IMG/VR virus record: IMGVR_UViG_3300027760_000034
Coordinates: 1 to 57,258 of that record
Source: a virus
DNA: 57,258 bases
Reading direction: 5' to 3' (one strand)
Position numbers and translations under genes: made by a program. This document shows, piece after piece, positions 9,080-36,790 of the stretch (position 1 is the stretch's first letter; each line of letters opens with the position of its first letter). Below the pieces are notes generated by a model that saw only the letters and a program-made list of their open reading frames with translations, ran no database searches and was not told where the DNA came from.

Positions 9080-9274
9080 TGAATCAAAGCTTCACTTAAA
9101 AAAAGCAACAATCGTAAAATCAATCGCGCATACTTTTATTTATTAAAAAGCGTTTATCACAAGTGTTTGTTCTTTTTCAAAACCGTCCATAAAGTTATTT
9201 ATATAATAACCAAAACGTTAATAACCAAATCGGGCTTTGTATGTTGCATGCAATGATTATTTGACTTACAGTGC

Positions 9275-10333: not shown

Positions 10334-10339
10334 TATTAT

Positions 10340-10347
10340 TATTTAAG
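10340..10347 (-). promoter_or_regulatory. TAAATA-type late promoter (6-nt spacing)
   Basis: CTTAAATA on the minus strand, six bases from the ATG at 10333; it is embedded in one arm of the inverted repeat 10341-10385. Confidence 0.5.
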
Positions 10348-10385
10348 GATTATAATGAATATTATTATTCAAATAATCCTTAAAT
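10341..10385. terminator. Inverted repeat between two genes, possible terminator
   Basis: Perfect 13-bp arms (ATTTAAGGATTAT at 10341-10353 and its complement at 10373-10385) around a 19-nt loop, directly after the stop of the 144-aa gene. The stem is AT-rich with no U-tract, so terminator function is uncertain. Both arms carry a TAAAT core, so it may also act as a paired promoter element. Confidence 0.4.
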
Positions 10386-10395
10386 AACCAAAATA

Positions 10396-10830
10396 TTACT
10401 GATATTTATTTTTATAAGATTCCAACAAAACTTGTGCTTTTTTCATGTCTTCCTGGTTTATTTTGAGAAAATTCATGATTTGATCATCATTCATGTTCAG
10501 ATTGTCTTTTTCAATACGATAAAGTATTCGGCTGGCCATTTGTTGCTTGTATTTCTTTACAAAATTATCACTGCTTTCATTCAGTACATTTTCAAAGCTT
10601 TCAAAATAATCCTCGTCTTTGCCCTCTTTTGTTTTGTTTTCAATGTGGGATTTGACGGCAAGTTCCAGATCATTTTTAAAATTTTCAACATTTTGTTTAT
10701 CTTCATATATTGCAGCCAGTTTAACAAAAGCGGCATGAATGGTCATGCGTCGGAGCGGATCCTGAAACAGGTTGAGTGTTTTGGGATAATCAATGCTTAA
10801 CATTTTGCTGAATATGCTGTTGTCGATCAT
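10396..10830 (-). CDS. Hypothetical helical protein, 144 aa
   Basis: Charged, almost wholly helical by composition, Lys/Glu/Asn-rich; no membrane segment. Its start overlaps the stop of the 63-aa coiled-coil gene by four bases, and it ends a small operon (11670 to 10396). Possibly an assembly or chaperone-like factor, but no family is recognised. Confidence 0.65.
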   Translation of the reverse strand: MIDNSIFSKMLSIDYPKTLNLFQDPLRRMTIHAAFVKLAAIYEDKQNVENFKNDLELAVKSHIENKTKEGKDEDYFESFENVLNESSDNFVKKYKQQMASRILYRIEKDNLNMNDDQIMNFLKINQEDMKKAQVLLESYKNKYQ

Positions 10831-11015
10831 TTTTTCTTTTTCCTTTCTTTGCTGTATTTTTCCAACATCTTAATGAAGCTGACGCTATAAAGATGATGTT
10901 TAAGTTCCCTTATCTCTTTTTGCAGGCTGATGTTTTCATTTGTCATTCGAATCATATCCTTTTGCAGTTTATTGTTCTGCTCTTTTAATTTGCGAAAAGA
11001 TTCCAGGAGGCTCAT
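10827..11015 (-). CDS. Hypothetical coiled-coil protein, 63 aa
   Basis: A continuous heptad pattern over residues 3-40, then a KERKKKK tail. The ATG at 11015 is two bases after the stop of the upstream gene and a GGGA lies just upstream. Overlaps the next gene by four bases. Confidence 0.65.
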   Translation of the reverse strand: MSLLESFRKLKEQNNKLQKDMIRMTNENISLQKEIRELKHHLYSVSFIKMLEKYSKERKKKK

Positions 11016-11017
11016 GA

Positions 11018-11497
11018 TTAGTCCCAAAGATTATTATAGTAAATGGCGAACAATTTCAATCCCCGCTTTTGACGTTTCCTGGATTTTTTGTCGGCATCCT
11101 CTTTTAGTTGATATTCAAAAGCAAATATGATGTCATCCAACACACTTCGCCATTCCTGTTCAGTTAATGATTCTGTATCTGGTCCGAAAATTACATCTGT
11201 TAATTCAGAAACAGTTCCATCCTTTCCATCTTTGTGAAATCGAATGCTGGTGCCATGAAAGTTGTTTCGCATCTTTTTCAAAGGAGGTAATATTTTACGG
11301 GCAATATACCATGCCACATTCCAAGGATCAGTTTCATTATACCCCCATACAATTTCCTGGATAAAATATTTTATACGGTGAAAAAAGGGTTTCACATACC
11401 AATTCCACAAACGGTTAAGAAATCCTATCTCAACAATCTTGATGTTGTTCCGGTCCAGCATGTCTTTTATTTTTTGTTCGATTTCTGCCTGGTTCAT
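11018..11497 (-). CDS. Conserved phage hypothetical protein, 159 aa
   Basis: The pattern WNVAWYIARKILPPLKKM, then an acidic loop, then EWRSVLDDIIFAFEYQ, resembles a phage family of unknown function with a W-N-x-x-x-x-IA...L-P-x-L and EW-x-x-x-L-D-x-[MI]-I-x-AFE layout. A basic SRKRQKRG patch is near the C-terminus. The start at 11497 overlaps the upstream 58-aa gene as ATGA. Cytoplasmic, function unknown. Confidence 0.7.
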   Translation of the reverse strand: MNQAEIEQKIKDMLDRNNIKIVEIGFLNRLWNWYVKPFFHRIKYFIQEIVWGYNETDPWNVAWYIARKILPPLKKMRNNFHGTSIRFHKDGKDGTVSELTDVIFGPDTESLTEQEWRSVLDDIIFAFEYQLKEDADKKSRKRQKRGLKLFAIYYNNLWD

Positions 11498-11670
11498 TTT
11501 CTTTTGCGATGTTTGACCTTTTTCCAAATCTTTCCGTGCTTATCCAAATCAACGCTCCAAAGCATAAGTTTATTATAAATTGGATAACCAAAACCATCCC
11601 CCCAACGCATGATGGTACGGCTGATCATATCTCCTATGTGATACAGGATCGTGCTAACAACCAACTTCAT
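11494..11670 (-). CDS. Conserved phage hypothetical protein, 58 aa
   Basis: Basic protein with an M-x-R-x-G-x-G-[FY]-x-x-Y-N motif followed by W-S-x-D-L-D and a Lys-rich tail. I associate this layout with small phage proteins that sit beside the 159-aa type above. ATGA overlap with the next gene supports both reading frames. Function unknown. Confidence 0.65.
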   Translation of the reverse strand: MKLVVSTILYHIGDMISRTIMRWGDGFGYPIYNKLMLWSVDLDKHGKIWKKVKHRKRK

Positions 11671-11700
11671 TTTTATTTCCAGATGATACTGGAAAGAAGA

Positions 11701-11898
11701 TTATTTGTTAAAAACACTGACCAGCTTGGTCTTGATGTCGTTGGTGTACTTGTGCAGGAACTTGTCGATTGCTGCATTGGCTGCATCAACTCCCTGTGTC
11801 TTTTCAATCGTCACTATTTGATCATGATCCAAGGTGACGCTGATTGAATCAGTTTTTGTTCCGTCTTTGATAAATCCAGTATCCAATGTTATTTTCAT
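11701..11898 (-). CDS. Hypothetical protein, 65 aa
   Basis: Begins with a predicted beta-hairpin (KITLDTGFI, SISVTLDHDQI) followed by a helix (about 35-55). The start at 11898 is supported by TGTAAGTA, a variant of the TAAATA box, five bases upstream. Function unknown. Confidence 0.6.
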   Translation of the reverse strand: MKITLDTGFIKDGTKTDSISVTLDHDQIVTIEKTQGVDAANAAIDKFLHKYTNDIKTKLVSVFNK

Positions 11899-11903
11899 AA
11901 TAT

Positions 11904-11911
11904 TACTTACA
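11904..11911 (-). promoter_or_regulatory. TAAGTA-variant late promoter (5-nt spacing)
   Basis: TGTAAGTA on the minus strand, five bases from the ATG at 11898; same variant and spacing as at 48452. Confidence 0.4.
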
Positions 11912-11951
11912 AACAACTTTTAAAAAGCTAGTCTATTTAATATATAATATT

Positions 11952-12041
11952 ATGAGTTGTAAATGTTGCCATGGAATCAAGCTTAAGTGGTTGATTCCGT
12001 TTGTTTTACTAATTGCTGCAGTTTATTATTTTGCCAAGTAA
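11952..12041 (+). CDS. Tiny membrane protein, 29 aa
   Basis: Starts MSCKCC, then one membrane helix (about residues 11-27). It overlaps the 3' end of the opposite-strand gene by 16 bases. The CKCC cluster could bind metal or be acylated. Short, so coding status is uncertain. Confidence 0.4.
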   Translation: MSCKCCHGIKLKWLIPFVLLIAAVYYFAK

Positions 12042-12280
12042 TTGGCATGATCTTGCAGGGCATACTGAGCATCCCTTATCATTTCTGGTAGGGGATTCAC
12101 TATCTCGTTATTCTCTTCATCCAATATGAGATATAGTTTCACCTCGGCTTCATTTAATCCAACCTTAACATCTCCGTATGCGAAATAATTTTCATCATTG
12201 AATTTGAAAGAAGCTTTCAGTTCTTCAAAACTTTTGGGTTCTTTTGTTTCAACCTCATTCACCAACATTTGCCAATTCAT
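12026..12280 (-). CDS. Hypothetical acidic protein, 84 aa
   Basis: Soluble acidic protein with alternating strand and helix character. The start is chosen because the ATG overlaps the upstream stop (TGATG). Third gene of a coupled set beginning at 12791. Function unknown. Confidence 0.65.
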   Translation of the reverse strand: MNWQMLVNEVETKEPKSFEELKASFKFNDENYFAYGDVKVGLNEAEVKLYLILDEENNEIVNPLPEMIRDAQYALQDHANYLAK

Positions 12281-12633
12281 CAGTTGTCTTGGTCTTCCCA
12301 ATTGAATTCTTTTTCCGGTCTGCCTTTTTCAAAATGTCCAGCTTCTATTCCTCTTTCATTAGCGTCATCCCGAAGTGCTTCCTTGGCTTTAGTGATGATA
12401 CCTTCATCCGGATATTCTATTTTTTGACCTATATTTTTAGGTTTGGTTTCATCTCGGTCATAAATGTCCCATATTTCCACATCCCAATTATCCCAGTTCG
12501 TATCCTCTGTATCATAATCAACACTACCCACAACAATGTAACGAAATCCCAAATAACGAAAAGGAACGGTTAAACCATCATGATGATAATCACTTTCATT
12601 CAGAATGTGTTTTACCAAATCATCAAACTTCAT
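12280..12633 (-). CDS. Hypothetical protein with capsid-targeting-like N-terminus, 117 aa
   Basis: Begins MKFDDLVKHILNE, an amphipathic leader ending in L-N-E. This resembles the capsid-targeting sequences of T4 internal head proteins that are cut after [LI]-x-E by the prohead protease. The rest is acidic, rich in Trp and Asp, with a beta-rich core. ATGA overlap with the upstream 53-aa gene. Packaging into the head is an inference from the leader only. Confidence 0.65.
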   Translation of the reverse strand: MKFDDLVKHILNESDYHHDGLTVPFRYLGFRYIVVGSVDYDTEDTNWDNWDVEIWDIYDRDETKPKNIGQKIEYPDEGIITKAKEALRDDANERGIEAGHFEKGRPEKEFNWEDQDN

Positions 12634-12791
12634 TTTTTATCAAACTCCTTTTGCGCAACAAGTTTGTTGTATTGATTCATAACTTGTTGCAGATACTGAC
12701 ATTCCAACTGACCACCCAATCTTTTAATCACTTCTTCACACTCTTTCAAGTTCATGACATTAACTTTTTTCTTTTTTTTCTTTTCGGCCAT
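12630..12791 (-). CDS. Hypothetical basic protein, 53 aa
   Basis: Poly-Lys N-terminus, then a helical region with the pattern C-E-x-x-x-x-R-L-x-G-Q-x-x-C-x-Y. I have seen this layout in small phage proteins of unknown function. ATTAAATA lies five bases upstream. Heads the 12791-12026 set. Confidence 0.6.
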   Translation of the reverse strand: MAEKKKKKKVNVMNLKECEEVIKRLGGQLECQYLQQVMNQYNKLVAQKEFDKK

Positions 12792-12796
12792 ATAGT

Positions 12797-12804
12797 TATT
12801 TAAT
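12797..12804 (-). promoter_or_regulatory. TAAATA-type late promoter (5-nt spacing)
   Basis: ATTAAATA on the minus strand, five bases from the ATG at 12791. Confidence 0.55.
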
Positions 12805-12879
12805 CTTTCTTGTCAAAATAAATACATCGCAACCGAACATGATATGGTCTGTGATCACATTCACAGAAATATTTATATA

Positions 12880-13020
12880 TTATTTTTCTCGTTCCGTAAG
12901 CATCTGATCTGCAATCTTATATGCTTCAGCACAAGCACCTTCCGCATAACCCTTGTTAATGATAAGGGCATGTAAACTTAATATTGCAAATATATCCCGC
13001 AAATCACTATCATTACTCAT
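12880..13020 (-). CDS. Hypothetical protein, 46 aa
   Basis: Helical, Ala-rich; the pattern DLRD-x-FA...GYAEGACAEAYKIADQML recalls a common small phage protein of unknown function. AATAGATA, a variant promoter box, sits five bases upstream of the ATG. Confidence 0.55.
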   Translation of the reverse strand: MSNDSDLRDIFAILSLHALIINKGYAEGACAEAYKIADQMLTEREK

Positions 13021-13939: not shown

Positions 13940-14011
13940 ATGGATCTGGTGACTTTTCTGCTTTGCACCTGTGTTTTATTTTATATATTAAGTGTGGTTG
14001 TTCGTTACTGA
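13940..14011 (+). CDS. Possible tiny membrane peptide, 23 aa
   Basis: Short plus-strand ORF made almost entirely of hydrophobic residues with one C-terminal Arg. It lies between two minus-strand genes and overlaps one by seven bases. No ribosome-binding site or promoter box; listed with low confidence. Confidence 0.2.
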   Translation: MDLVTFLLCTCVLFYILSVVVRY

Positions 14012-14283
14012 TTGTTCAGATACTTTTCAATCTTTGTTTTCAGTTCTGCATTTTCCTTTAACCGTTTGCGCCGTTCCAAACTTGTAATGAACAAACCCAC
14101 ACTGATAGGAAAGAATATTCTCAAGAAGAATTGAAGATGATCTTCTGATGTAAGCATATTAAAGTAAGTGGTGTATAATTCAGCCATTCCCCATATTGTA
14201 TAAAGTATGGCTGGTATGAACAGCATACAAAAAGCTTTGTTCCAGCTTTTCATATTTTTAAAATATTCAATTAACCTGTTCAT
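14005..14283 (-). CDS. Membrane protein with two helices, 92 aa
   Basis: Two hydrophobic segments (about residues 15-37 and 51-68), then a basic, coiled-coil-like C-terminal tail (69-90). GTTAAATA lies seven bases upstream. The layout of two helices plus a charged cytoplasmic tail is compatible with a holin or an inner-membrane takeover protein; no family recognised. Confidence 0.6.
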   Translation of the reverse strand: MNRLIEYFKNMKSWNKAFCMLFIPAILYTIWGMAELYTTYFNMLTSEDHLQFFLRIFFPISVGLFITSLERRKRLKENAELKTKIEKYLNNQ

Positions 14284-14290
14284 TCCAAAT

Positions 14291-14298
14291 TATTTAAC
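14291..14298 (-). promoter_or_regulatory. TAAATA-type late promoter (7-nt spacing)
   Basis: GTTAAATA on the minus strand, seven bases from the ATG at 14283. Confidence 0.45.
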
Positions 14299-14322
14299 AA
14301 ATGTTGATTTTGATGATTATGT

Positions 14323-14330
14323 TTTAAATA
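14323..14330 (+). promoter_or_regulatory. TAAATA-type late promoter (6-nt spacing)
   Basis: TTTAAATA six bases before the ATG at 14337. Confidence 0.5.
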
Positions 14331-14336
14331 AAAAAT

Positions 14337-14501
14337 ATGAAGAAACTTGTGTTTTGTTTAGTTTTGACTGGATGTGCAGGCAACAACAGTTATGTGGTTC
14401 ATGACCCTGAAAAGAATACCAGTGAATATAATCTAATGGACAGCCCAGATGGTATGCAGGATCCTAATCTAAGAGCAAAGACTGTTATTTTTAAATATTA
14501 A
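14337..14501 (+). CDS. Small lipoprotein, 54 aa
   Basis: N-terminal MKKLVFCLVLTGC is a lipoprotein signal with lipobox LTGC; the mature form is about 42 residues beginning at Cys13. After cleavage it should be anchored by lipid in the host envelope. The tail motif PDGM-x-x-x-x-LR is shared with the small lipoprotein at 37001. Phage lipoproteins of this size act as outer-membrane spanins or superinfection-exclusion factors; no partner inner-membrane spanin is evident next door. Confidence 0.65.
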   Translation: MKKLVFCLVLTGCAGNNSYVVHDPEKNTSEYNLMDSPDGMQDPNLRAKTVIFKY

Positions 14502-14518
14502 TTTATATAAAATATATT

Positions 14519-14701
14519 ATGCCATTCAATTTTTTAAACAAAGATAAATGCACAAGAGATTACTATTATCAAGTAACTGGTATTTGGCACAGATTAGGTA
14601 ATGATCATCCTATAAAACAAGTACTTACGTCTTTAATATTTCTGGGAACACTTGGATTGATAATTCATTTGATTATAAAACTTTTTGTTAATGATTTGTA
14701 G
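14519..14701 (+). CDS. Small membrane protein, 60 aa
   Basis: Polar N-terminal half with Cys, Tyr and His, then a C-terminal membrane helix (about residues 35-57). Follows the lipoprotein gene by 17 bases on the same strand and could be its partner. Function unknown. Confidence 0.5.
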   Translation: MPFNFLNKDKCTRDYYYQVTGIWHRLGNDHPIKQVLTSLIFLGTLGLIIHLIIKLFVNDL

Positions 14702-14753
14702 TAGGAATAGGCTAAATTATTGTATTGAAATTTAAGGGCATGCCATCGTTTTT

Positions 14754-15626
14754 ATGAAAATAGATTACGTGTTTTCGTTTGCTAATCATTTTTATAAAGA
14801 ACTTTATAAGCAGTACTTTGATTGCGTTCTTATTAATCCACGCAACGTTTATGAGTTACAGTCTGTGGATGTGACAAAGAATATTATATTTTTATTTGGA
14901 GATCCATTCACTCTCAACTATATCAATAGGAGCAATCTATCTGGCAAGAATATAATGTTTCTAAGACGGCATGAGTTCTATGAAAATAATTTTGAACTGC
15001 TTCAAAAAAACCGTCTTAAGATTCAGCATTTCTTTACTTTAAATTCTTTTTTTCAAAAGATATTAAGAGACTTACATGGCATTGAGTCCATCATAGAGAA
15101 AAATTATCTGGACGAAGAGCTGTGGACATACAAAGAAAGAGGTCATGGCAAAGAGATTGCTTGGGTGGGTGAATTTCAGCAACGCAAATCACCGGATTAT
15201 CTGAGTGAATTATTATCTTGTTTTCCAGATTATAATATCCATTGTGCCGTTTCACCAGGCCCATCTAAACAACTATATATAGATTTTCTACAAAACTATA
15301 ATTATAAGAATCTATTTCTGTATAATGATATTAATACCCAAGAGAAAATGAACAAATGGCTAGATAATAAAAATTATCTGGTAACCACATCCATATCAGA
15401 GGGGTTGCCTAATAATGTCCTGGAGGCTTTGGCAAAAGGTATTAAGCCCATAGTGAGAGATTATCCTGGAAATATATTTAATAAATTCGCATATAAAAGT
15501 ATTTCTGAATTTAATATGCATTTGTCAGACGAATATAATTCTCAAGAATACAGACAAATGATAGAAAAAAATTATGGATTAAAACAGTTTTGTCAATTTA
15601 GAGATAAAATTATTAATATTAAATAA
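14754..15626 (+). CDS. GT-B (GT4-like) glycosyltransferase
   Basis: 290 residues. The C-terminal half has the GT4-type nucleotide-sugar motif: SEGLPNNVLEAL carries the two Glu residues spaced E-x7-E (about 215-223), followed by a Lys-Pro-Ile-Val strand. The WVGEFQQRKSPD segment (about 142-153) corresponds to the hinge before the sugar-nucleotide domain. The N-terminal domain is divergent. Acceptor and sugar cannot be deduced. First gene of the modification island; its stop overlaps the end of the opposite-strand radical SAM gene by eight bases. Confidence 0.8.
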   Translation: MKIDYVFSFANHFYKELYKQYFDCVLINPRNVYELQSVDVTKNIIFLFGDPFTLNYINRSNLSGKNIMFLRRHEFYENNFELLQKNRLKIQHFFTLNSFFQKILRDLHGIESIIEKNYLDEELWTYKERGHGKEIAWVGEFQQRKSPDYLSELLSCFPDYNIHCAVSPGPSKQLYIDFLQNYNYKNLFLYNDINTQEKMNKWLDNKNYLVTTSISEGLPNNVLEALAKGIKPIVRDYPGNIFNKFAYKSISEFNMHLSDEYNSQEYRQMIEKNYGLKQFCQFRDKIINIK

Positions 15627-16569
15627 AAGACTTCTGTATTTTCATATCAAATAAACATGTACATGTATTTTTTTGACAAATAGCTGGTATATCAAATAGT
15701 TTTATTCTAAGATTTTTATCTTGTTGCAAATTACCGAAATAACGAGTACGGCATTGAGATCCCCACACTGAGCCATCTTGTTTAATTACCAAACTATTCA
15801 TGCCAGTGTAACATTTTGATCCAAAAAAATTAAAGTAATTATTTGAAATAATTTTTTGACCATCAAATGCTGTTTGTTCCCCATTAAAATATTCTACAGT
15901 AATTTTATCATTATTTGTATTATAAATTTCATTCGAAGGATTTTCTTGAATATATTTTATTTGATGTTCTGTATATAAAGGAGTGAATCGTTTTTTGTAA
16001 TCATTTACATCCAAGATACCTTTGTTGTTTACAATAACTCCATCTGTTTTCATAAATTCTTTTGATGCTTTTACTGCAATATCCCAGTATTCTGGATCCA
16101 TTAACACATGTATTTCAACATGTTTTTTTCTATCAAGAAAAATATTACACAACTTTTTGAAGTGATCTATTTTTGCATATCTGGGATGAAAGCTACAATA
16201 CAAAATATCCATGTCATCAATTATACGATTCCAAAAATCTAAATTATTTCCAAGATTTGTAACCATAGCAATATTAAAATTTATTGATTTAAAAAATTTA
16301 ATCATATCTTCAACTCCATTGTAGAAGCTAGGCTCACCCCCCGTGATAGTGACTTTTCTTTGAAGCCTGTTTGTTATAATTGGATTATCTTTAATCAGAT
16401 TATCAAAAAACTTTATGTAGGTTTCTACAACTATGTGAGGATACATTCCTTTATTAAGATAAGGCGGACAATAGCTACACCGTTGATTACACCAGCTATT
16501 AATTACAAAATTAATACTAAAACAATCATTTGTAATGCTTTTTATGGCAGGTTTAAAGTGGTTTTGCAT
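15619..16569 (-). CDS. Radical SAM protein 1 with Cys-rich C-terminus
   Basis: The radical SAM cluster motif C-x3-C-x2-C is WCNQRCSYCPP near residues 27-36 and the SAM-contacting GGEP motif follows about 45 residues later. The C-terminal region holds further Cys (SKCYTG, GSQCRT, CQKNTCTC), consistent with an auxiliary SPASM/twitch-type iron-sulfur site. Such enzymes often modify peptides or sugars by radical chemistry. The ATG at 16569 is chosen because GGAGG lies seven bases upstream; it overlaps the end of the preceding radical SAM gene. Substrate unknown. Confidence 0.85.
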   Translation of the reverse strand: MQNHFKPAIKSITNDCFSINFVINSWCNQRCSYCPPYLNKGMYPHIVVETYIKFFDNLIKDNPIITNRLQRKVTITGGEPSFYNGVEDMIKFFKSINFNIAMVTNLGNNLDFWNRIIDDMDILYCSFHPRYAKIDHFKKLCNIFLDRKKHVEIHVLMDPEYWDIAVKASKEFMKTDGVIVNNKGILDVNDYKKRFTPLYTEHQIKYIQENPSNEIYNTNNDKITVEYFNGEQTAFDGQKIISNNYFNFFGSKCYTGMNSLVIKQDGSVWGSQCRTRYFGNLQQDKNLRIKLFDIPAICQKNTCTCLFDMKIQKSFI

Positions 16570-17359
16570 GTTCACACCTCCAGCATAATGTATTAGATTT
16601 ATTGTTGGTTAGCGAATCTACAATGTGTTTGTATGTTTTAGAATTGGTAATTTCTTCATAGGACTGTTCTATAAGATTACCCAATTTATGCTCCATACTC
16701 CAATCCATACAACAAAGATACACGTCACCATTCGGTAATAAGACATGTTGTTTTATTTTATTTGTAGAGCATTTTATGGCTATATTACAAGTGTTGTCTA
16801 TTTTCTTAAATGCACTAACATTTCCAGCTCTGCTATTCCATCGAAAATAATCAGGAGTTAAAAAAGAAATTTTTGCCCGAGTTTTTGATAATAAGGATTG
16901 TATTGAAGAGTGTGGCTCGCTTCCAAAGAAAACTATTGCATCGCTATTCTCTAGGCTTTGCAGGCATTTTTCAACATTATGAATATAATTATTATCTATT
17001 ATTAAGTTCATTGAATTATCGTTAACCGGCAAATGTAGAATAATATTATTATACTTTCGATTTAGAATTGTATTAATATTATCTTGCGATGCTCTATAAA
17101 GAGTTGTAGATATTCGTATATAATGTCCCCTATCCTTAGAAAGCTCAACCATCTTAAAACAATCTTTATGAAAAAAAGGTTCAGAGAATCCTGTAAAATG
17201 TATTCTTGTGGAATTTGGTAATTTATTTAAAATATAATTAAAATTTTCTAAAGATAATTTTTTTATATCTGAATCGTATTTGGATACAAAAGAGTCTTGT
17301 GGACAGTAGGAACATTTTATTCCACACCCCGCCACAGTGGTTATTTCTAATGCATCCAT
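16553..17359 (-). CDS. Radical SAM/SPASM protein 2
   Basis: Cluster motif CGIKCSYCP with Cys12, Cys16 and Cys19. The GGEP position reads GFSEPF. The C-terminal NGDVYLCCMDW followed by LGNL and CWRC matches a SPASM domain that binds auxiliary clusters. 268 residues, compact for the family. Starts 16 bp from the divergent sulfotransferase gene, so the two share a tiny control region (17360-17375). Probably co-transcribed with radical SAM protein 1. Substrate unknown. Confidence 0.85.
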   Translation of the reverse strand: MDALEITTVAGCGIKCSYCPQDSFVSKYDSDIKKLSLENFNYILNKLPNSTRIHFTGFSEPFFHKDCFKMVELSKDRGHYIRISTTLYRASQDNINTILNRKYNNIILHLPVNDNSMNLIIDNNYIHNVEKCLQSLENSDAIVFFGSEPHSSIQSLLSKTRAKISFLTPDYFRWNSRAGNVSAFKKIDNTCNIAIKCSTNKIKQHVLLPNGDVYLCCMDWSMEHKLGNLIEQSYEEITNSKTYKHIVDSLTNNKSNTLCWRCEHAKPL

Positions 17360-17375
17360 ATATAGTATATAGTAT

Positions 17376-18071
17376 ATGCTTAATATTGTTCTACTAGCAA
17401 TTAGTTATCGCTCTGGTTCTAATTGTCTTAGATCAATATTAGACCAGAATAAAGAAATATCTGCCAAGGGTGAAATATTCAGACCCTATTTTAAATTAAA
17501 CAATGTTAATCGTGACTGTCTTCTAAATGAGATTGACACACGTTTGAATAGATTTAGGGAAAGAAGTGATAAGAATAAAGTTTTTTTATATACTAGTGTT
17601 GTAGATGAAATATTAAAGCTAGAAGAGTATGATTTGATCCGTAGCATTTTACCCAATAAATCAATCTTTCTATATCGGGAAGATCTCTTGGAACAGTACT
17701 GTTCAGTTAAGGTAGGAAAAGTAGCGGGTATCTATCAAGATACAGAGCAATCCAAAAAAGAGAAACAAAAAATAAGAATAGAGTTTAATCTTAATGAATA
17801 TTTAAATTTTGTTGCTAGAATGAATCGGCATAGAGACTTCTTTTTTGCGTTTTATAAGAAATATAAGATAAATTATATTATTGTAGAATACAAAAGCATA
17901 ATAAAACGGATAGAAGAAATATTTAAATTTTTAGATTTAGAATATAAAGGCGAGCTACCAATTACTATTAAATCTGAAAGTCGTCCATTGCACGAAATTA
18001 TAATTAATTACTCAGATATACCGAATAACATAGATCATAGATTAGTAGTTGATGACATTATTTCTGCTTAA
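17376..18071 (+). CDS. Sulfotransferase-like protein
   Basis: 231 residues. N-terminal SYRSGSNCLRSIL (about 10-22) fits the PAPS 5'-phosphosulfate loop, and SIFLYREDLLEQYCS (about 95-110) fits the 3'-phosphate-binding strand-helix of sulfotransferases, closest in style to Stf0/NodH-like bacterial enzymes. It would transfer sulfate from PAPS to a sugar or other acceptor. Single plus-strand gene inside minus-strand neighbours; its 3' end overlaps the convergent radical SAM gene by 30 bases. Confidence 0.7.
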   Translation: MLNIVLLAISYRSGSNCLRSILDQNKEISAKGEIFRPYFKLNNVNRDCLLNEIDTRLNRFRERSDKNKVFLYTSVVDEILKLEEYDLIRSILPNKSIFLYREDLLEQYCSVKVGKVAGIYQDTEQSKKEKQKIRIEFNLNEYLNFVARMNRHRDFFFAFYKKYKINYIIVEYKSIIKRIEEIFKFLDLEYKGELPITIKSESRPLHEIIINYSDIPNNIDHRLVVDDIISA

Positions 18072-18950
18072 TGTTCTCCTATCAATCGGACAGACCTTAC
18101 AGATATCATTTTGCTTTCTATTTGCTAGAATTTTAGCAAAAAAATCTTTTGATTTCTCTGAATTAAATATCTCGCTAATAGTTTGCTTGTTTGCGTCGCC
18201 TATTATTACTTCTCCCTGATAATCATGACAACAAGGATTACATTCCCCGTTCCAATTTATAACAAATGAACCGGAGAAAATCGAGCAACTGTTGGGTATT
18301 GCTTCGGTAACTTTTTGCTGTGTCTGTTTATTAATTTGCTCTGTTTCAGTATATTCTGCCATATTAAAATTAGGCAGCTTGTAATATATGTTATCGTATA
18401 ACCCTGAGAATTTATTTTTAATATTGACCAGATCTTGTGTATTGTAAGAAAATAAGACTGTTTGTATCTTTATTTTAGGTCGAGAAGGCATGCTACCATA
18501 TTTGTCAAAATAGTATTTTATTCCCTCATGTATCTTGTCTAAATCCACACCCTTTCTATATGTTGCATTTAATTCTTTTGTTGATCCATCAATACTAACA
18601 ACACACTCATTCAGTTTGCTCTTGGCTAGTAAATCTATATCTTCTTGTTTGTAGAAGACTAATCCGTTTGTAGATGTCCTGTGGTACACATTCTCTGGTA
18701 TCATTTGATAGAGCTGGGACCACCTGGGGTGCAGAAAAGGCTCTCCATAATTGAAAGAGACTATTTGCACTTTGTGATTCAATTCTCTTACCTCATTCAT
18801 TATTTTTTGAAATAATTCATTGGAAATGAACCCTTTTTTTCTATCCAAAGAATCAGAACCTGTTGGACATAGAGGGCATTTGGCATTACACGTGTTGGTA
18901 AGCTCTATCATGATGGAGCTAAGATGTCTATTCATATATGGGATGAACAA
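18042..18950 (-). CDS. Radical SAM/SPASM protein 3
   Basis: Cluster motif TCNAKCPLCP (Cys21, Cys25, Cys28); FNYGEPFLHPRW replaces GGEP. A SPASM-type C-terminus is present: NGECNPCCHDY, then an I-G-D-x-x-x-x-x-I-x-E-I-[FY] segment and CKVC. The pattern resembles SPASM enzymes associated with surface-polysaccharide and peptide-modification clusters. Overlaps the upstream glycosyltransferase by 23 bases. Confidence 0.87.
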   Translation of the reverse strand: MFIPYMNRHLSSIMIELTNTCNAKCPLCPTGSDSLDRKKGFISNELFQKIMNEVRELNHKVQIVSFNYGEPFLHPRWSQLYQMIPENVYHRTSTNGLVFYKQEDIDLLAKSKLNECVVSIDGSTKELNATYRKGVDLDKIHEGIKYYFDKYGSMPSRPKIKIQTVLFSYNTQDLVNIKNKFSGLYDNIYYKLPNFNMAEYTETEQINKQTQQKVTEAIPNSCSIFSGSFVINWNGECNPCCHDYQGEVIIGDANKQTISEIFNSEKSKDFFAKILANRKQNDICKVCPIDRRTLSRNNVINY

Positions 18951-19659
18951 ATTTATGTTCTTTTAATTTTAATTTTGCTTCTTTTTCATCTATAAATTCA
19001 TCATAAAAATAACGGGCCCTTCCTTTCATATAAATTATAGAATAAAATTCAGCGTGATCATATAACTCTATATTTAGATCTTGGCAAGCTATGCCCATGA
19101 GTAATTCTGTTGAGAGAATGTATTCACCAGGTAATCCTCTTGCCAGGAAACTGTTTATTCTACTTGTTAAAAATTTATCATCTTCAAAATACTTTTCTTT
19201 TTTGAATGTTTGAATTACATCAGATCCAATTCCAAAGATTCCATTTTGTATAAATCTGGGTCTTATCAGATTTATAAGTTTATTTCCATCGTATATCTTT
19301 TTATCAAGAGTAGATTCAAACATTGTTCCAAACACAGTATTCTTTAACTCATTACCCAGCTCTATAGTACCCTGCACTCTTGAATCTGGATCTGCCTTTA
19401 TTACAACATCTGTGTTGAGATCATCATACACATTGATTATATTGCGAAAGAAAGCACCTGGTGTTGCATTGGTATGTGATCTATCAAATAGATAATATAT
19501 AAGATTATTATCGTGGCAGTATTTTCTTATATCTGGATCATCATTTCCATCGCTCATAACAGATATGGGACTATTAGGATAATATTTTTGTATCTGTAGA
19601 GCACTTGTTTTTAACAAATCAAAATCCTTATACACGGGTACTATGAAACCTATATTCAT
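18928..19659 (-). CDS. GT-A glycosyltransferase-like protein
   Basis: The N-terminus MNIGFIVPVYKDFDLL fits a GT2-type nucleotide-binding strand, and IKADPDSRV (about 86-94) supplies a D-x-D metal/nucleotide motif. The remainder is divergent. 243 residues, soluble. ATGA overlap with the upstream GT-B gene. Donor and acceptor unknown. Confidence 0.7.
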   Translation of the reverse strand: MNIGFIVPVYKDFDLLKTSALQIQKYYPNSPISVMSDGNDDPDIRKYCHDNNLIYYLFDRSHTNATPGAFFRNIINVYDDLNTDVVIKADPDSRVQGTIELGNELKNTVFGTMFESTLDKKIYDGNKLINLIRPRFIQNGIFGIGSDVIQTFKKEKYFEDDKFLTSRINSFLARGLPGEYILSTELLMGIACQDLNIELYDHAEFYSIIYMKGRARYFYDEFIDEKEAKLKLKEHKFVHPIYE

Positions 19660-20567
19660 ATTTGTAATACTTTCTTAAATATATTATTATTGTAGTTTCT
19701 TGCATTATTTTGAAATGCTGCCAACTCTTCTGTCAGTATACTGTACTTATTTTCATTATTCAAAATATCCATAATGTTACAATCGGCAGAATCAATTTGC
19801 TTCAAGCTATTATATTCTAGGAATTTCTTATTGGCAATTAGAGGTATTTTATTGGCTATACTATGTGTGAGAGATTCTGATGTCTTGATGCTAGTATAAT
19901 CCACTTTGGAGCTATCGTAAGGTATGAGTAAAAACTTGAACCCTGCAATTTGTTTGTAAAAATCTGCATGGCTGCACAGGTCTATTGTTTTTGCGTTGCT
20001 TGAATGTATTTGCTTAATAGTCTCTTTGGATCCTTCACCTAGTAGCTTTATGCTGCAATTATTTTTTTGCATAAAAGAACTTATATATTCTATAGATATC
20101 TTATTTTCAAAAAAACGAGAGGTTACTCCAATCATATTTTCCTTGCATGCATTTAAATTTAGCGGTGTTTCTGTTTGAAAGAAGTAGTTTTCGCTAAATG
20201 ACTTTTCATATACTCCGTTGGCTATATTTTTAGAGAGTGGAAAATACTTTTTAATTATGCTCTCACCATGGCTCAATGGTCTATGATGTACAAATATAAA
20301 ATTATTTGTCTCTCGAAAAACAGGATTAGTATAAAACTCAGGAATTTTATTGTTAGATTCAAGTGCAGTTATTACTATAGAAACATCAAAGCACGGCACC
20401 TGTGTCAGAGGTAATTTATATAAATTACACAGTTCTTTGAAATTATATTTGTCACACGGATTATGATGGTAGAACATGGGCGATAATCCCAAACACTGTA
20501 AAGATTTGTATATCGATAGTGCTGTGGCATGGTGGTATTCTGTATTAACAATGATCCCTATTCTCAT
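19656..20567 (-). CDS. GT-B-like glycosyltransferase, divergent
   Basis: 303 residues. Starts with a strand-loop-helix (MRIGIIVNTEYHHATALSIY) typical of GT-B enzymes. The C-terminal half has a strand-rich region ending in LLIPYDSSKVDYTSIKTSESL, where the conserved Glu-containing helix is expected. No full E-x7-E motif, so the call rests on layout and operon context. Overlaps both neighbours by four bases. Confidence 0.5.
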   Translation of the reverse strand: MRIGIIVNTEYHHATALSIYKSLQCLGLSPMFYHHNPCDKYNFKELCNLYKLPLTQVPCFDVSIVITALESNNKIPEFYTNPVFRETNNFIFVHHRPLSHGESIIKKYFPLSKNIANGVYEKSFSENYFFQTETPLNLNACKENMIGVTSRFFENKISIEYISSFMQKNNCSIKLLGEGSKETIKQIHSSNAKTIDLCSHADFYKQIAGFKFLLIPYDSSKVDYTSIKTSESLTHSIANKIPLIANKKFLEYNSLKQIDSADCNIMDILNNENKYSILTEELAAFQNNARNYNNNIFKKVLQI

Positions 20568-21343
20568 TTATATTTCTCGTATAAGTTTTTTAACGTAGAT
20601 GTTATCTCATTTGGATCTTCCCCCGCTTTCGATAGCAAAGAGAATACAAATGAACTAAAACATTTTTTTGATTCAGAATATATCCACGGTTTACTATTAC
20701 CGTGAAAATGTAGTATAGCTATATCTTTTATTGTATCTTTTGTTACTTGGCTTGTTACTGTGTTATATTTTTGAGGTAGAAGGGTCACAGTATCGCGAAA
20801 ATATAGATTAAATGGGGACTGATCATTATACCATCTTCTTTTTTTAGCAAGATTTATCAAATTGTCTTTATGTTTTTTATCTATTATCTTTCGAGATAAG
20901 ATCATGAGACCACAATTAAAGAAATTCTTTTCAAGATAATTTAAATCCAGAAGCATGTCGGGGTATTTTCTACAAGCTGCAAAATCACCAGAAAAAAGTA
21001 ATAGATCTTTTATATCCTGTAATACAAGCATGTCTGAATCTATCATAACGATTTTGTCGTAGTTAAGATAAGACAACTCGAAAACATCAAATCTATAATA
21101 CAGATTATAATTGTATTCTTCTTGTATGCCCTTGCATTGGTTATAATCTTCTTTTTTAACATGAATTATTTTAATTCTACTATATATTTTGGATAGTTCA
21201 GAAATAGATTTATCTGATAGATTTCCATCAGAAAGAATTAGATAATCCAGGTCAAACCATGGATTATTAGTTAGTAAGCTATTGAGCAAAGCTCTCATTG
21301 CAGGCATGAAATCATCATTTAGAGCAGTAAAAAAAGCTGTCAT
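20564..21343 (-). CDS. GT8-family glycosyltransferase
   Basis: 259 residues with hallmark GT8 features: YDKIVMIDSDML carrying the D-x-D metal site (about 94-105), FNCGLMI in the middle, and HFHGNSKPW near residue 213-221, the family's C-terminal H-x-x-G-x-x-KPW motif. GT8 enzymes transfer glucose or galactose to lipopolysaccharide cores or proteins. ATGA overlaps with both neighbours make it part of one coupled operon with the other transferases. Confidence 0.9.
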   Translation of the reverse strand: MTAFFTALNDDFMPAMRALLNSLLTNNPWFDLDYLILSDGNLSDKSISELSKIYSRIKIIHVKKEDYNQCKGIQEEYNYNLYYRFDVFELSYLNYDKIVMIDSDMLVLQDIKDLLLFSGDFAACRKYPDMLLDLNYLEKNFFNCGLMILSRKIIDKKHKDNLINLAKKRRWYNDQSPFNLYFRDTVTLLPQKYNTVTSQVTKDTIKDIAILHFHGNSKPWIYSESKKCFSSFVFSLLSKAGEDPNEITSTLKNLYEKYK

Positions 21344-22185
21344 ATGCTATCTTTATAATGCAAGAATTGCTCAATATCAATCTTTAGCTGCTTGTATTCC
21401 TGTTTTATTTGTATAATCCCGTTGTCTCGTTTCAACATTAACAAAGGATCAAAACGATTATTTTCATATATTTTATATCTGTTTATATAATTGCGTTTCT
21501 CAAGTTCTCCATGATAATTATGATAAACTACTCCTTGTAAATATCCTGTTTTTAAATTTTTACATTTATTATAATATTCTTGGATGGTGTGGTAATGATT
21601 TTCTGAATAAGGGTAATATGCAAATTTTTCCTTAGCAAAGCAGCTTTGGGGGTAAGGTATCATTTTTTCTTGAATAAAAGACCGGGCCATGATCGCATCA
21701 CCGGTGCCTGCTATATTCATATCATACAATCCTCCAAGATGCAGAAAAACACTTTTTTTCATGGCCCAAGCAAATCCACAATGGCCGTGTCGGTTATTCA
21801 CTTGCTTGGCGTAAACAAAACCGGCTACAGGATTTAATGGTTTGTTGTTTTTGTCCAGATGATAACAAGAATGAAACAATTGAAGCACATCATATCCTTC
21901 TTCAAATTTTTCCAAAGCTTTTGAATACCAATCAAGATCCTGAAAACAAACATCATTATCTATCCAAAAAACATGTTCTGTATCCTGAATATGATTCAGG
22001 ATGGCCAGATTCAATAAATTTTCTTTTAAAAAGATTTTATCCTCGCTTTTGAATGTGTGATCAAAAGATATACCATCCTCCTGTATGCCGGAAACAATTG
22101 AAAAAGGGTATTTTTTCTTAAAAGTTTCTATCGACTCCTTCCTGTTTTTATTATTGAAGAAGTTGAAGTAGCTTGTAAAAATCAT
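21340..22185 (-). CDS. GT-A glycosyltransferase-like protein
   Basis: 281 residues. HVFWIDNDVCFQ (about 70-81) has a D-x-D motif, and the later GGLYDMNIAGTGDAIMA segment resembles the acceptor loop of GT2-type enzymes. The start at 22185 is chosen because the ATG overlaps the stop of the upstream giant tail gene (TAATG), so it is translationally coupled to a virion gene. This ties the modification island to late gene expression. Confidence 0.7.
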   Translation of the reverse strand: MIFTSYFNFFNNKNRKESIETFKKKYPFSIVSGIQEDGISFDHTFKSEDKIFLKENLLNLAILNHIQDTEHVFWIDNDVCFQDLDWYSKALEKFEEGYDVLQLFHSCYHLDKNNKPLNPVAGFVYAKQVNNRHGHCGFAWAMKKSVFLHLGGLYDMNIAGTGDAIMARSFIQEKMIPYPQSCFAKEKFAYYPYSENHYHTIQEYYNKCKNLKTGYLQGVVYHNYHGELEKRNYINRYKIYENNRFDPLLMLKRDNGIIQIKQEYKQLKIDIEQFLHYKDSI

Positions 22186-25100
22186 TATCCCTGGGCTTCT
22201 GTCCAAGAAACTTTACACAATGCTTGATTGGTGGGAGAAGATGATACAGGACGAACAAACACTGTTAAAATATCAGGTCCATTTGGATACACATTGTTAC
22301 CGCCCAATATGGAATTGCCCAGATTTCTTATCAAATCGATAGGATAATTTGTAACTTGATTTCTTCCTGCATCTTGTTCGGCTGCCAAGAAACCCCCTAT
22401 AACAACCCCAGCACTTACCGGCACTGTTCTAAGACTGGGGGTGCTATGATCAAGATATTGTGAAATGCTACCATTGCCTGCGTTAATCCAATTGCCTGAA
22501 ACTGTCCACAAACTGCTTTCACAATTGAGTCTTATAAACACATTCAGTGCCTGACGTGTGACAATCTGCACGTCATTCAATACTAATATGGAACGATTAA
22601 TTAGATTTCGAATTCCCACAAAACTTCCTATTCCATAATCTACGGCAGGCGCAAGACGAATAGAAATAAGGGGATAATCTCGGTTATCCAATAATGGAAG
22701 AGCTGCAGCAGATGTGCCTGCCGTGAACAAATATGATTTGTCCGGGGTGAATCCCCCGTCCATGATCACGGATGTGCCCCAATGTGAAAGAGCCGGAGAA
22801 CAATTTTGATTGAATGAAAATAAATTGTTATAAGGATAAAATTGATGATAAGGAACACTCACAAGATTGCCAGCATTTCTTTGTTTTATTGTTAAAACCT
22901 GTTCACCGGTGCTGGTGGTTCTTATTTTATTGTAGCGCAAATATTCATAATCATATATTAATGTGCCGCTATTCGGTATGAAAAACGTTGCGCTGGATGG
23001 CACAGAAATTGTGGAGGCCAGCGGGGAAATGGTTTGGGTTGTAGCAATTTCTTTTCCTGTTAACAAATCGTATGCTTTATAGAATGCATTGTTTGTTTCA
23101 AGATTGTTTATTATATCAAAACTTGCTGTTGTTGCTTGACCGCTTTCTGTTAAAGGGGTTGTAGGCGGGGTAAAATTACCGTTTCTGTATTGGGCAAATC
23201 CGCTTGTTACGCGAATATCATCAAAATAACAATCAGCTGCATTTCCATAATACACACCGCCTAAATATAGATTTTCATATCCAAAACTATTAAAATTAGT
23301 TGCTGAAAGAACAGATATGCCATCCACGAACAGATCGCAACGTCCATTCAATCTTTGCAACACCATATGATGCCATCTGTTAGCAGAAAGAACATTGGTT
23401 GTGGAGGGACCAATAATATTTACACTATATGCATCAGCCAATCCCATGGATACAGTGGTGGCACTTGTGGTGCTTGTGGCAGTTTTATCTGCAAATATAC
23501 CTAAACCAGCTCTGCCATAATATGCAGGTGCTCCCACAGTAAAAATTGTGTTTGTGTCTGAGTAGGCTTGACTAACTGGAAAAATAAATCTATTAAAGTA
23601 AACAAAACATTCAATTGTAAAATCTGACCCAAATCCCGTATAATTTCCATATATATATGATCCATAGTAATAGGGGTTTGCTTTAACACTATGAGTGCCA
23701 AATTTTACTGGAGATGTGTAATATGTGTAACCACTCCCACCGCCGAAACTACTCCATTTGTTGCTGGAAGTTGCTGAGTTAGCATTTGTGTTATCACAGT
23801 TATACAATGCTATCACTGCATTAGCTGAATTGGAATACCGGAACAAACTTGCACTCAATCTGGGTGTTGTAACAACATAAGGTCCATTTATGTTACTAGA
23901 CTTTCTCACTTCTACTGTTCTTGGTTCAGACAAGTCGTTCAATGTGTTATAAGCAGTGAGATTGATTCGATCTGCTTGCAGAATATATCCTATTTTGGGT
24001 TTGTTTATGATCTCAAACCTTCCTGGCAAATTGCCGGAACGCATGTATGCTTCCAGATTAACATTGTTATTTTTCATTTGATGACAGAAAATAATGCTGC
24101 CATCCTTGGATCGAACACCCCAGCGTATTCTACCTGCACCATACCAACTGTAATCAAAATACAACATCTGCATTTTGTTTAAATCTATGGTGTATCCAGA
24201 AGCACCTGTGCCATCTATTTTATCCAGATTAAATTGATCCTGTGAAATGCGCATTTCCTCTGTTTTTGCATAACGAATAGCATTAACAGTAGAACCTATA
24301 TATTTTGGAACTATTGTTAAAGTTGTATCACTGTTGATATCACTCACATAATAACTCATGCCTCGAATAACAATATAATCGCCTGTCCGGATTTGAGATA
24401 AAAATTTGGTATTGGTGCCTGTCACAACAGTGCTACCGGCCACAACACTTACAGTTCCTGTCATGTTGTTTGTGCTGGTTTTTCTTCCTACATAAAGTTT
24501 GTTTCCATCATATTCAAAAAAGATTCCGTTTTGCTCATCAAACAATCCTGTTCGAACTGATGCATCATTCCAATCCATAACATCTACTTTTCCAAGACCA
24601 TCCGGATTCAAGTCTGTTGGTGCTGTAAGAGTGTTAAATTGTGTGGTTAAACTGCTGGATACAGGCAACAAAACTGTGAATGTATTTTGATCACCAACAG
24701 AAGCAACTGTGAATGTTGTATTATATCGATTAATTCCTCCTTTAACTGTAAGATCCCTGAGACGCACTGATGCACCTTGCAAATAGGTTGAAGGATTGGC
24801 AAAACCATGAGGTTGTTCTGTTGCAATTGTAATCACATAATATGATGATAAATTTTGATTAAAAGATGTTGCATCAACTGATATGCTGCGCATGTCATAG
24901 CTGGGTTTGAACAATAACCCTGTGCTAAACAATATGCTTTTTCCTGATTGATAACGGAAATAATTTCTTGTTTGACGAATAATTTGGGAATATGGAGAGT
25001 TATTAGCAGTTGTTATTTGCACTCCACCATCTGTTGCCCTGTGCAAAGCGTAACCTTCAGGTCGCACATACAAACGAGTGTTAGTAATATTCAGGCTTGT

Positions 25101-25811
25101 ATTGCTTGCCGGAAACAAACCTGCAGTCAAATCAGATTGATATGTGAATGTTGTAGGTGAAATAATATTTTTTACTGTAAATGTTCCTGTGGTATAATCA
25201 TTTGTGCGGGTAGAATCAACAACCCATATGGGTTGATTCAAAAAGAAATTATTAGGATTTGTGGTTGTTACCTGAACATCTGCAATTCCAGAAAGAGACA
25301 CCATGCTAGTAAAAGGTATGGAAGCAGTATCATAAAATCCTCCGTTATAAACTGTTGTTTCAGCCGTTGCATAATTAACGTTGGGACGAATAACCAATCT
25401 TTTTCGAGGAGACATGGTGTATTGTCGAGCATTTTGGGCTGCTGTAATCAGGGCAACACCATCTGCCAAACCATTTAGAGTGTTAACAAACACAAGAGGT
25501 GTTCCCACTGTAAAAGAAAGACTGGGGGTAAATGTGCTGACCAAGTTTAATGTGAGACCACCTGCGGCTGAAGTGGCTGATAAGCTTTGAATTTGATCTG
25601 CCATTAAAACAGTATCATCTGTTTTAAGAAATACTGAAGGAGTATTATTCATCAATTCCAACGTTTCCCACTTGGGAGATTGAAGACTATATTCAAAATC
25701 CGTATCAATCAAAGACTGAGGATTGCTTGTACGGATTCTTTCTACTGCATCATTCTGTACTGGCTTTATTATTCGGTTGCCAATATTTGCACTATTATAT
25801 GGAAAGCTCAT
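22185..25811 (-). CDS. Giant tail/fibre protein with LamG-like insert, 1208 aa
   Basis: Structural protein paralogous to those at 25808 and 50656. Shared blocks include SLIDTDFEYSLQ with KWE near the N-terminus, HRATDGGVQ, RYQSGKSILFSTGLLFKP, FDYSWYGAGRIRWGVR, RSGNLPGRFEI, HWGTSVIMDGGF and a C-terminal LGNSILGG...SWTEAQG. A region at about 660-885 is unique: it reads as a LamG/concanavalin-like lectin domain (FTIECFVYF, then RWHHMVLQR, then DLFVDGI). The start at 25811 overlaps the upstream stop as ATGA. Likely a host-recognition or baseplate-associated fibre. Confidence 0.8.
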   Translation of the reverse strand: MSFPYNSANIGNRIIKPVQNDAVERIRTSNPQSLIDTDFEYSLQSPKWETLELMNNTPSVFLKTDDTVLMADQIQSLSATSAAGGLTLNLVSTFTPSLSFTVGTPLVFVNTLNGLADGVALITAAQNARQYTMSPRKRLVIRPNVNYATAETTVYNGGFYDTASIPFTSMVSLSGIADVQVTTTNPNNFFLNQPIWVVDSTRTNDYTTGTFTVKNIISPTTFTYQSDLTAGLFPASNTSLNITNTRLYVRPEGYALHRATDGGVQITTANNSPYSQIIRQTRNYFRYQSGKSILFSTGLLFKPSYDMRSISVDATSFNQNLSSYYVITIATEQPHGFANPSTYLQGASVRLRDLTVKGGINRYNTTFTVASVGDQNTFTVLLPVSSSLTTQFNTLTAPTDLNPDGLGKVDVMDWNDASVRTGLFDEQNGIFFEYDGNKLYVGRKTSTNNMTGTVSVVAGSTVVTGTNTKFLSQIRTGDYIVIRGMSYYVSDINSDTTLTIVPKYIGSTVNAIRYAKTEEMRISQDQFNLDKIDGTGASGYTIDLNKMQMLYFDYSWYGAGRIRWGVRSKDGSIIFCHQMKNNNVNLEAYMRSGNLPGRFEIINKPKIGYILQADRINLTAYNTLNDLSEPRTVEVRKSSNINGPYVVTTPRLSASLFRYSNSANAVIALYNCDNTNANSATSSNKWSSFGGGSGYTYYTSPVKFGTHSVKANPYYYGSYIYGNYTGFGSDFTIECFVYFNRFIFPVSQAYSDTNTIFTVGAPAYYGRAGLGIFADKTATSTTSATTVSMGLADAYSVNIIGPSTTNVLSANRWHHMVLQRLNGRCDLFVDGISVLSATNFNSFGYENLYLGGVYYGNAADCYFDDIRVTSGFAQYRNGNFTPPTTPLTESGQATTASFDIINNLETNNAFYKAYDLLTGKEIATTQTISPLASTISVPSSATFFIPNSGTLIYDYEYLRYNKIRTTSTGEQVLTIKQRNAGNLVSVPYHQFYPYNNLFSFNQNCSPALSHWGTSVIMDGGFTPDKSYLFTAGTSAAALPLLDNRDYPLISIRLAPAVDYGIGSFVGIRNLINRSILVLNDVQIVTRQALNVFIRLNCESSLWTVSGNWINAGNGSISQYLDHSTPSLRTVPVSAGVVIGGFLAAEQDAGRNQVTNYPIDLIRNLGNSILGGNNVYPNGPDILTVFVRPVSSSPTNQALCKVSWTEAQG

Positions 25812-36782: not shown

Positions 36783-36790
36783 TATTTATA
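36783..36790 (-). promoter_or_regulatory. TATAAATA late promoter (5-nt spacing, GTG start)
   Basis: Consensus octamer on the minus strand, five bases before the GTG start at 36777 of the long tail fibre. Confidence 0.65.

Follow-up and report, generated by a model that had tools for sequence, protein, structure and literature searches.

What is made by nine consecutive genes for predicted modifying enzymes that directly follow a giant fiber gene in a phage, and on which surface does their product end up? We addressed this question in a viral DNA stretch of 57,258 nt (IMG/VR record IMGVR_UViG_3300027760_000034, positions 1–57,258; hereafter, the window). Its list of open reading frames (ORFs) contains all nine genes, spanning 14754–22206, at the position proposed in the initial annotation. 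They encode putative glycosyltransferases (GTs), three radical S-adenosylmethionine (SAM) enzymes, and a probable sulfotransferase, and we refer to them together as the island. Our analysis makes it likely that the island is a cassette acting on glycans. We tentatively favor a late cassette that alters a glycan of the host surface, an explanation to which we give a little less than an even chance.

Counted from the fiber gene fib1, the gene order is GTA9, GT8, GTB7, GTA6, rSAM3, ST, rSAM2, rSAM1, and GT1, with ST and GT1 on the plus strand and the other seven genes on the minus strand. The most likely start of GTA9 is the ATG at 22185 (281 aa), which is common to the relatives, rather than the TTG at 22206. 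The last A of the fib1 TAA stop codon starts GTA9 in a TAATG junction (22183–22187, minus strand), and ATGA overlaps of 4 bases occur at the GTA9/GT8, GT8/GTB7, and GTB7/GTA6 junctions, confirming the short overlaps and the coupling to a giant fiber gene that had been claimed. The GC content is 30.6% in the island, 38.4% in the fiber operon, and 36.5% in the whole window. No transmembrane-like stretch was found in any island protein; therefore, the enzymes are predicted to act on nucleotide sugars, on lipid-linked or nascent glycans, or on cytoplasmic proteins.

Five of the genes had been labeled glycosyltransferases. GT1 (14754–15626, plus strand) is a GT-B enzyme of the family 4 type, matching PF00534 above the Pfam cut-off (7.2e-9), and is kept in every island-bearing relative whose contig extends that far. 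GT8 (20564–21343, minus strand) matches the GT8 family PF01501 (2.5e-21) and a GT8 structure (PDB entry 3tzt, 5e-7). The first island gene after the fiber, GTA9 (21340–22185, minus strand), has no Pfam match; its AlphaFold2 (AF2) model (pLDDT 85.7) gave 208 PDB matches at E ≤ 0.001, the best neighbors being GT-A enzymes (chondroitin polymerase and GalNAc transferases among them), and as modeled GTA9 folds as a GT-A enzyme. The label thus stood for GT1 and GT8, through Pfam, and for GTA9, through its model, but not for the remaining two beyond a motif or a very weak match. GTA6 (18928–19659, minus strand), a putative GT-A-like enzyme, carries a DPDSR motif and is 72–97% conserved in the relatives, with no match in Pfam or PHROG and no useful one in the PDB. 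GTB7 (19656–20567, minus strand), a putative GT-B-like enzyme kept in all relatives, has a sole PDB lead, the “nucleotide sugar synthetase-like protein” 3qkw/3rhz, and this match is weak (E 0.046). We take 3qkw/3rhz to be of the Gtf3 type, which glycosylates a serine-rich adhesin. The glycosyltransferase labels of GTA6 and GTB7 are unproved.

Three radical SAM enzymes are indeed present, but the SPASM designation given to them in the initial annotation needs correction. rSAM1 (15619–16575, minus strand) matches PF04055 at the cut-off (1e-6) and has no match to the Pfam SPASM model PF13186; its invariant cysteines comprise C29, C33, and C36 of the CxxxCxxC motif and C255, C275, C300, and C305 in a C-terminal twitch-like domain. 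The PF13186 cut-off, which rSAM1 misses, is reached by rSAM2 (16553–17359, minus strand; 1.8e-12, 47.8 bits) and by rSAM3 (18042–18950, minus strand; 6.6e-14, 52.4 bits), the latter also matching Radical_SAM at 1e-13. The best solved relative of rSAM2 is BtrN (8.7e-5), and rSAM3 matches BtrN (1.4e-13) and cytosylglucuronate decarboxylase (8e-6); the best PDB match of rSAM1, MoaA, is weaker than these BtrN matches. Each of the three proteins has the CxxxCxxC motif and just four conserved C-terminal Cys positions, and the cysteine set for two auxiliary clusters, as in a full SPASM domain, is absent from all of them. Four auxiliary cysteines constitute the twitch pattern with one auxiliary cluster (PMC9012708), and because each enzyme has four such positions, their Cys patterns assign all three to the twitch type rather than to full SPASM. 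BtrN (2-deoxy-scyllo-inosamine dehydrogenase, PDB entry 4M7T) oxidizes an aminocyclitol and has a single four-Cys auxiliary cluster (PMC9012708), a pattern matched by rSAM3 and rSAM2, whose closest solved relative it is. A difference is that BtrN belongs to an antibiotic pathway.

Some bacterial homologs of rSAM2 and rSAM3 lie among polysaccharide genes. In Desulfuromonadaceae STB_154 (L047; L numbers denote the contigs and loci compared), homologs of rSAM2 (36% identity) and rSAM3 (23%) are adjacent in a polysaccharide cluster with a Wzx-type flippase, a heptosyltransferase, a polysaccharide deacetylase, a GDP-mannose dehydratase (Gmd), and glycosyltransferases. That cluster has membrane steps absent from the phage island, and no sulfotransferase was found in it. 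A Nitrospiraceae genome likewise has a flippase gene with an rSAM2 homolog after it. A scan with the rSAM2 alignment returned relatives of about 33% identity in some 70 Bradyrhizobium, Mesorhizobium, and Sinorhizobium genomes (L036–L110). Beside these, no further window gene was detected save an epimerase-like gene in a few, and for this reason L047 and L048, rather than the rhizobial relatives, were used in weighing host or function.

ST (17376–18071, plus strand) is a candidate Stf0/NodH-like sulfotransferase dependent on 3′-phosphoadenosine 5′-phosphosulfate (PAPS), identified by motifs and weak profile matches. The window sequence alone stays under the Pfam Sulfotransfer_3 cut-off (13.9 bits versus 27, E 0.065); all seven members of its family match that model, the best at 3.7e-4. 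The PAPS-binding motifs are invariant in the seven homologs, both in the 5′-phosphosulfate-binding segment (R12, G14, S15) and in the 3′-phosphate-binding segment (R101, S110). In addition, the ST profile aligns with a clear Stf0 sulfotransferase of L126 over the 3′-phosphate motif (E 1.6e-4, HHalign probability 51%). The AF2 model of ST was poor (pLDDT 52), and we therefore gave no weight to its fold matches, in which sulfotransferases ranked near the top, mixed with P-loop kinases and none at E ≤ 0.001. We conclude that ST is a probable sulfotransferase. In L126, a different viral contig of 121 kb, genes for GTA9-like and rSAM1-like proteins, two methyltransferases, and the Stf0 sulfotransferase are joined at 9001–13014, and we read this gene group as an independent link between these enzymes.

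The island is an inherited unit. Its order is kept in about 12 related IMG/VR contigs, most genes sharing 45–99% protein identity, with GTB7 and ST falling to about 33–40% in the most distant island-bearing contigs. The ratios of nonsynonymous to synonymous substitution (dN/dS) are mostly 0.03–0.3, indicating purifying selection; together with the conserved order, these values argue against a chance assembly. In the related contigs, the island is placed between fib1, the last giant fiber gene, and the T4-type capsid genes gp23-gp22-gp21, and in the relatives examined, the fib1 stop overlaps the GTA9 start (TAATG) or precedes it by a few bases. The homologs are thus found together beside a fiber gene, rather than always apart and away from fibers, the finding that the initial annotation had named as counting against its proposal. 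GTA9, GTB7, rSAM2, rSAM1, and GT1 are constant in complete islands, usually with a short DegT-like gene. ST is absent from L010/L011 and apparently also from L124, and rSAM3, GTA6, and GT8 are jointly absent from L028/L029, L117, and L122. The DegT-type aminotransferase-like gene (202 aa; L006 14198–14803) lies beside GT1 in most island-bearing relatives and is absent from the window, where the DNA left of GT1 holds other small genes instead; as we read these sequences, this shows a rearrangement left of GT1.

We also surveyed the slot occupied by the island in 39 loci that carry gp23 and extend far enough to show it. Seven islands were found (six mostly complete and one cut off), all within a group whose members share about 84% identity or more in gp23. 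Other slot contents occur in the same group, with no glycan genes in L129 and L131. The slot of L140 holds a clear sulfotransferase (4e-13) and another gene, and that of L142 two GT4 genes, a methyltransferase, and a DUF6734 protein. From this variety among close relatives, the cassette is judged to be facultative and replaceable.

Comparison of the window with its close relative L004 revealed a second kind of exchange. Between 41 kb and 13 kb, the two are mostly 93–100% identical (85–95% in parts of 32–35 kb), and the diverged blocks are fib2 plus fib1 (65–86%) and rSAM1 (70–76% DNA identity, with flanks of 97–99%). Four other contigs are mutually alike in the fiber C terminus (91–97%) and in rSAM1 (88–96%), whereas the window shares with all four only 75–77% and 65–67%, respectively; its remaining island genes match L004 at 92–99%. 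The 5.6 kb between the fiber and rSAM1 blocks is 96–100% identical in the window and L004. This pattern suggests that rSAM1 and the fiber functionally belong together. The co-exchange is a single event in one phage pair, and exchanges elsewhere in the island are seen in other members (GTB7/GTA6 in L022).

The island is organized with a late operon that also encodes the fibers. fib1 (22185–25871, minus strand; phrog_5838, 1.2e-177) encodes a giant virion structural or fiber protein homologous to T4-like GC 863 of cyanophages, with about 37% identity to the “virion structural protein” of S-PM2 and Syn1. In these two phages, the GC 863 gene closes a series of three giant structural genes, and a stretch of small cargo genes (hli and others) comes after it. 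fib2 (25808–29611, minus strand; phrog_5838, 4.9e-173), a second giant virion structural gene, was exchanged along with fib1. The first long gene of the operon leading to fib2, fib1, and the island lies at 32368–36777 (minus strand) and weakly matches a tape measure family (phrog_4211, 5e-6). Six bases before it stands an exact match to the T4-type late promoter box, TATAAATA (36783–36790, minus strand), one of eight exact boxes in the window, all intergenic; none was found between 36783 and the island. Because a scan of 14000–23500 gave seven terminator-like sites (3.4 expected), one of them right at the fib1/GTA9 junction, uninterrupted read-through from the late operon into the island is at most plausible. 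In L006, genes for the gp23 major capsid protein (PF07068, 3.6e-88) and the gp21 protease (PF03420, 6.8e-36) adjoin the island; the island of the window has no capsid genes as neighbors. By its fib1 homology, its late boxes, and the capsid genes of L006, the phage is T4-like.

Together, the L047 context, the relation to BtrN, the presence of glycosyltransferases and of a DegT-like gene, and the alternative glycan genes found in the slot argue for a sugar pathway. In the explanation that we favor, the island would share late expression with the fibers, through the operon driven by TATAAATA, and its glycosyltransferases would assemble a short oligosaccharide in the cytoplasm. The BtrN-like radical SAM enzymes would oxidize sugar carbons, or change them in some other way, in an intermediate that is a nucleotide sugar or a glycan, and ST would transfer sulfate from host PAPS. 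The acceptor would be nascent lipopolysaccharide (LPS), capsule, or another surface glycan of the host; a receptor changed in this way late in infection would limit superinfection and keep progeny from binding debris. As the acceptor, the host surface is slightly favored over the fiber, although we hold this with less than even confidence; it is a little likelier because of the bacterial context of the homologs and the precedent of the pelagimyophages (PMC7029224).

Several points weigh against this explanation. The acceptor is only predicted, the glycosyltransferase label is unproved for two of the five genes that bear it, and the window's own sulfotransferase match is weak. The island contains no flippase, polymerase, or membrane anchor, and these steps must be borrowed from the host. 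Late expression is a poor fit with early superinfection exclusion. Finally, the translational coupling to the fiber and the co-exchange of rSAM1 with it would fit modification of the fiber equally well. Of the phage-made glycan modification first proposed for this locus, the glycan cassette with a probable sulfotransferase, organized with the late fiber operon, is supported, and between fiber and host envelope as the acceptor we give the envelope a slight preference.

The fiber is kept open as the acceptor because of this coupling and co-exchange. A sulfated, radical-modified glycan on fib1/fib2 could change adhesion, stability, or recognition, and we regard such virion glycosylation as possible but doubtful. 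It is in agreement with the closeness of the GTA9 start to the fib1 stop across relatives, with the predicted solubility of all island enzymes, and with the finding that the fibers and rSAM1 are the main diverged blocks in the L004 pair. GTB7 would add to this if its lead presumably is an adhesin-glycosylating Gtf3, but that match is at E 0.046. Against it, the co-exchange is one event, the bacterial rSAM2 and rSAM3 homologs lie in polysaccharide rather than protein-glycosylation clusters, and the fib1 homologs of S-PM2, Syn1, and some close relatives have no glycan cassette downstream. A more specific version, in which the phage decorates its own fibers with a sulfated glycan containing radical-SAM-made sugars and rSAM1 is a specificity element covarying with the fiber, in effect a flagellin glycosylation island in viral form, is unlikely.

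Less probable still is peptide modification, in which the radical SAM enzymes would act on a peptide resembling the ribosomally synthesized and post-translationally modified peptides or on fiber side chains, with the glycosyltransferases and ST decorating the peptide. Many SPASM enzymes do act on peptides (PMC9012708), and NCBIfam peptide maturase models gave matches, but these were sub-threshold and no curated cut-off was reached. Moreover, the Cys pattern is of the twitch type, nearest to that of the sugar-acting BtrN, and no precursor peptide gene was recognized in the gene-packed island, although no search aimed at precursors was made.

We consider it very improbable that rSAM1 resembles viperin in function and produces modified nucleotides in defense or counter-defense, with unrelated cargo as neighbors. 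PADLOC viperin models match rSAM1 (1.4e-10) and rSAM3 (2.6e-9), but the matches do not extend beyond the radical SAM core common to these enzymes, the NCBIfam viperin score of rSAM1 is 37.7 bits (cut-off 180), and glycosyltransferases are inherited with these genes in a single cassette. T4-like phages are known to glycosylate DNA, and a PurZ-like protein is encoded 18 kb away, but decoration of phage DNA bases by the island enzymes is equally improbable, given that the cassette sits with late fiber genes rather than replication genes, its relatives lie in polysaccharide clusters, and the purZ-like gene is distant. A Gtr O-antigen conversion system, which would have a membrane flippase and a membrane glycosyltransferase, does not fit, as transmembrane-like stretches are absent from all island proteins.

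T4-like phages with cassettes of radical SAM and glycosyltransferase genes close to their tail genes are already known, and the claim that nothing similar had been described in phages was not upheld. Clusters of five radical SAM genes with an amidinotransferase are found, as interchangeable units, in the Campylobacter phages CP220 and CPt10 (2010; PMC2853527). Like the island, these are swappable modules of several radical SAM and other modifying enzymes, with weak homology to rSAM3 and rSAM1 (24–33%); the CP220 cluster lies in the tail/baseplate region of a T4-related phage alongside two nucleotide-sugar-transferase-like genes. They differ in having no annotated sulfotransferase, no coupling to a fiber gene, and little sequence similarity. 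Pelagimyophages carry glycosyltransferase and radical SAM cassettes in a fiber-containing host recognition cluster proposed to alter the host O-chain (2020; PMC7029224). The two share a T4-like phage, a hypervariable island with fibers (variability being seen here too), GT8 and other glycosyltransferases, and radical SAM genes. The pelagimyophage cluster lies between VrlC and gp14, and the slot in our relatives between fib1 and gp23; that paper mentions no sulfotransferase, and its freshwater members are without the LPS and radical SAM genes (PMC7029224). Synechococcus phage DSL-LC02 (OR032571) has a mannosyltransferase-annotated gene, an FkbM/radical SAM fusion (31% identical to rSAM2), and a further FkbM-annotated gene between fiber genes; it differs in its one radical SAM domain, its lack of a sulfotransferase, and its other glycosyltransferase.

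Literature searches outside subscription journals returned no description of a phage combination of radical SAM, sulfotransferase, and glycosyltransferase genes, or of three radical SAM genes and a sulfotransferase coupled to a fiber gene. Searches against phage records gave zero matches, both by megablast with 24 kb and by tblastn with rSAM1, ST, and GT8. What appears to be new is the combination of a sulfotransferase with three radical SAM enzymes, the swappable slot, and the one pair with a fiber-plus-rSAM1 exchange. The T4-like lineage that carries the cassette is probably a freshwater one. If our explanation is correct, phages equip the host-recognition interface with sulfated sugars derived by radical SAM chemistry and exchange whole cassettes of this kind at a single genomic slot. 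The role that glycosyltransferase and radical SAM genes play beside the fibers, in T4-like phages of marine and fresh waters, would then become directly testable, because the genes are few, predicted to be soluble, and ordered, with natural presence/absence and exchange pairs.

Four further observations were made. Six of the eight TATAAATA boxes (9196, 12870, 13335, 36783, 38533, and 43764) are followed by an ATG or GTG at a distance of exactly 5 bases, placing the start codon at or near +1, and the relatives show an excess of boxes at 5–6 bases. Some of these ATG/GTG codons open no long ORF. Leaderless late mRNAs in a T4-like phage are thus a possible reading of the spacing. In L035, which is close to the window, the first long gene of the operon is in two pieces around a fib1-like gene, an arrangement that is possibly rearranged or misassembled. 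The purZ-like gene of the window (39953–40936; phrog_1211, 1e-71) makes a 2-aminoadenine genome possible. Lastly, a gene of 361 aa beside gp23 (L006 14866–15948, L131 11578–12660, and L116 15347–16429) matches the LCIB-type carbonic anhydrase family PF18599 (3e-23). It is strongly conserved, with 88–100% identity in close relatives, and its product is possibly a structural protein with that fold.

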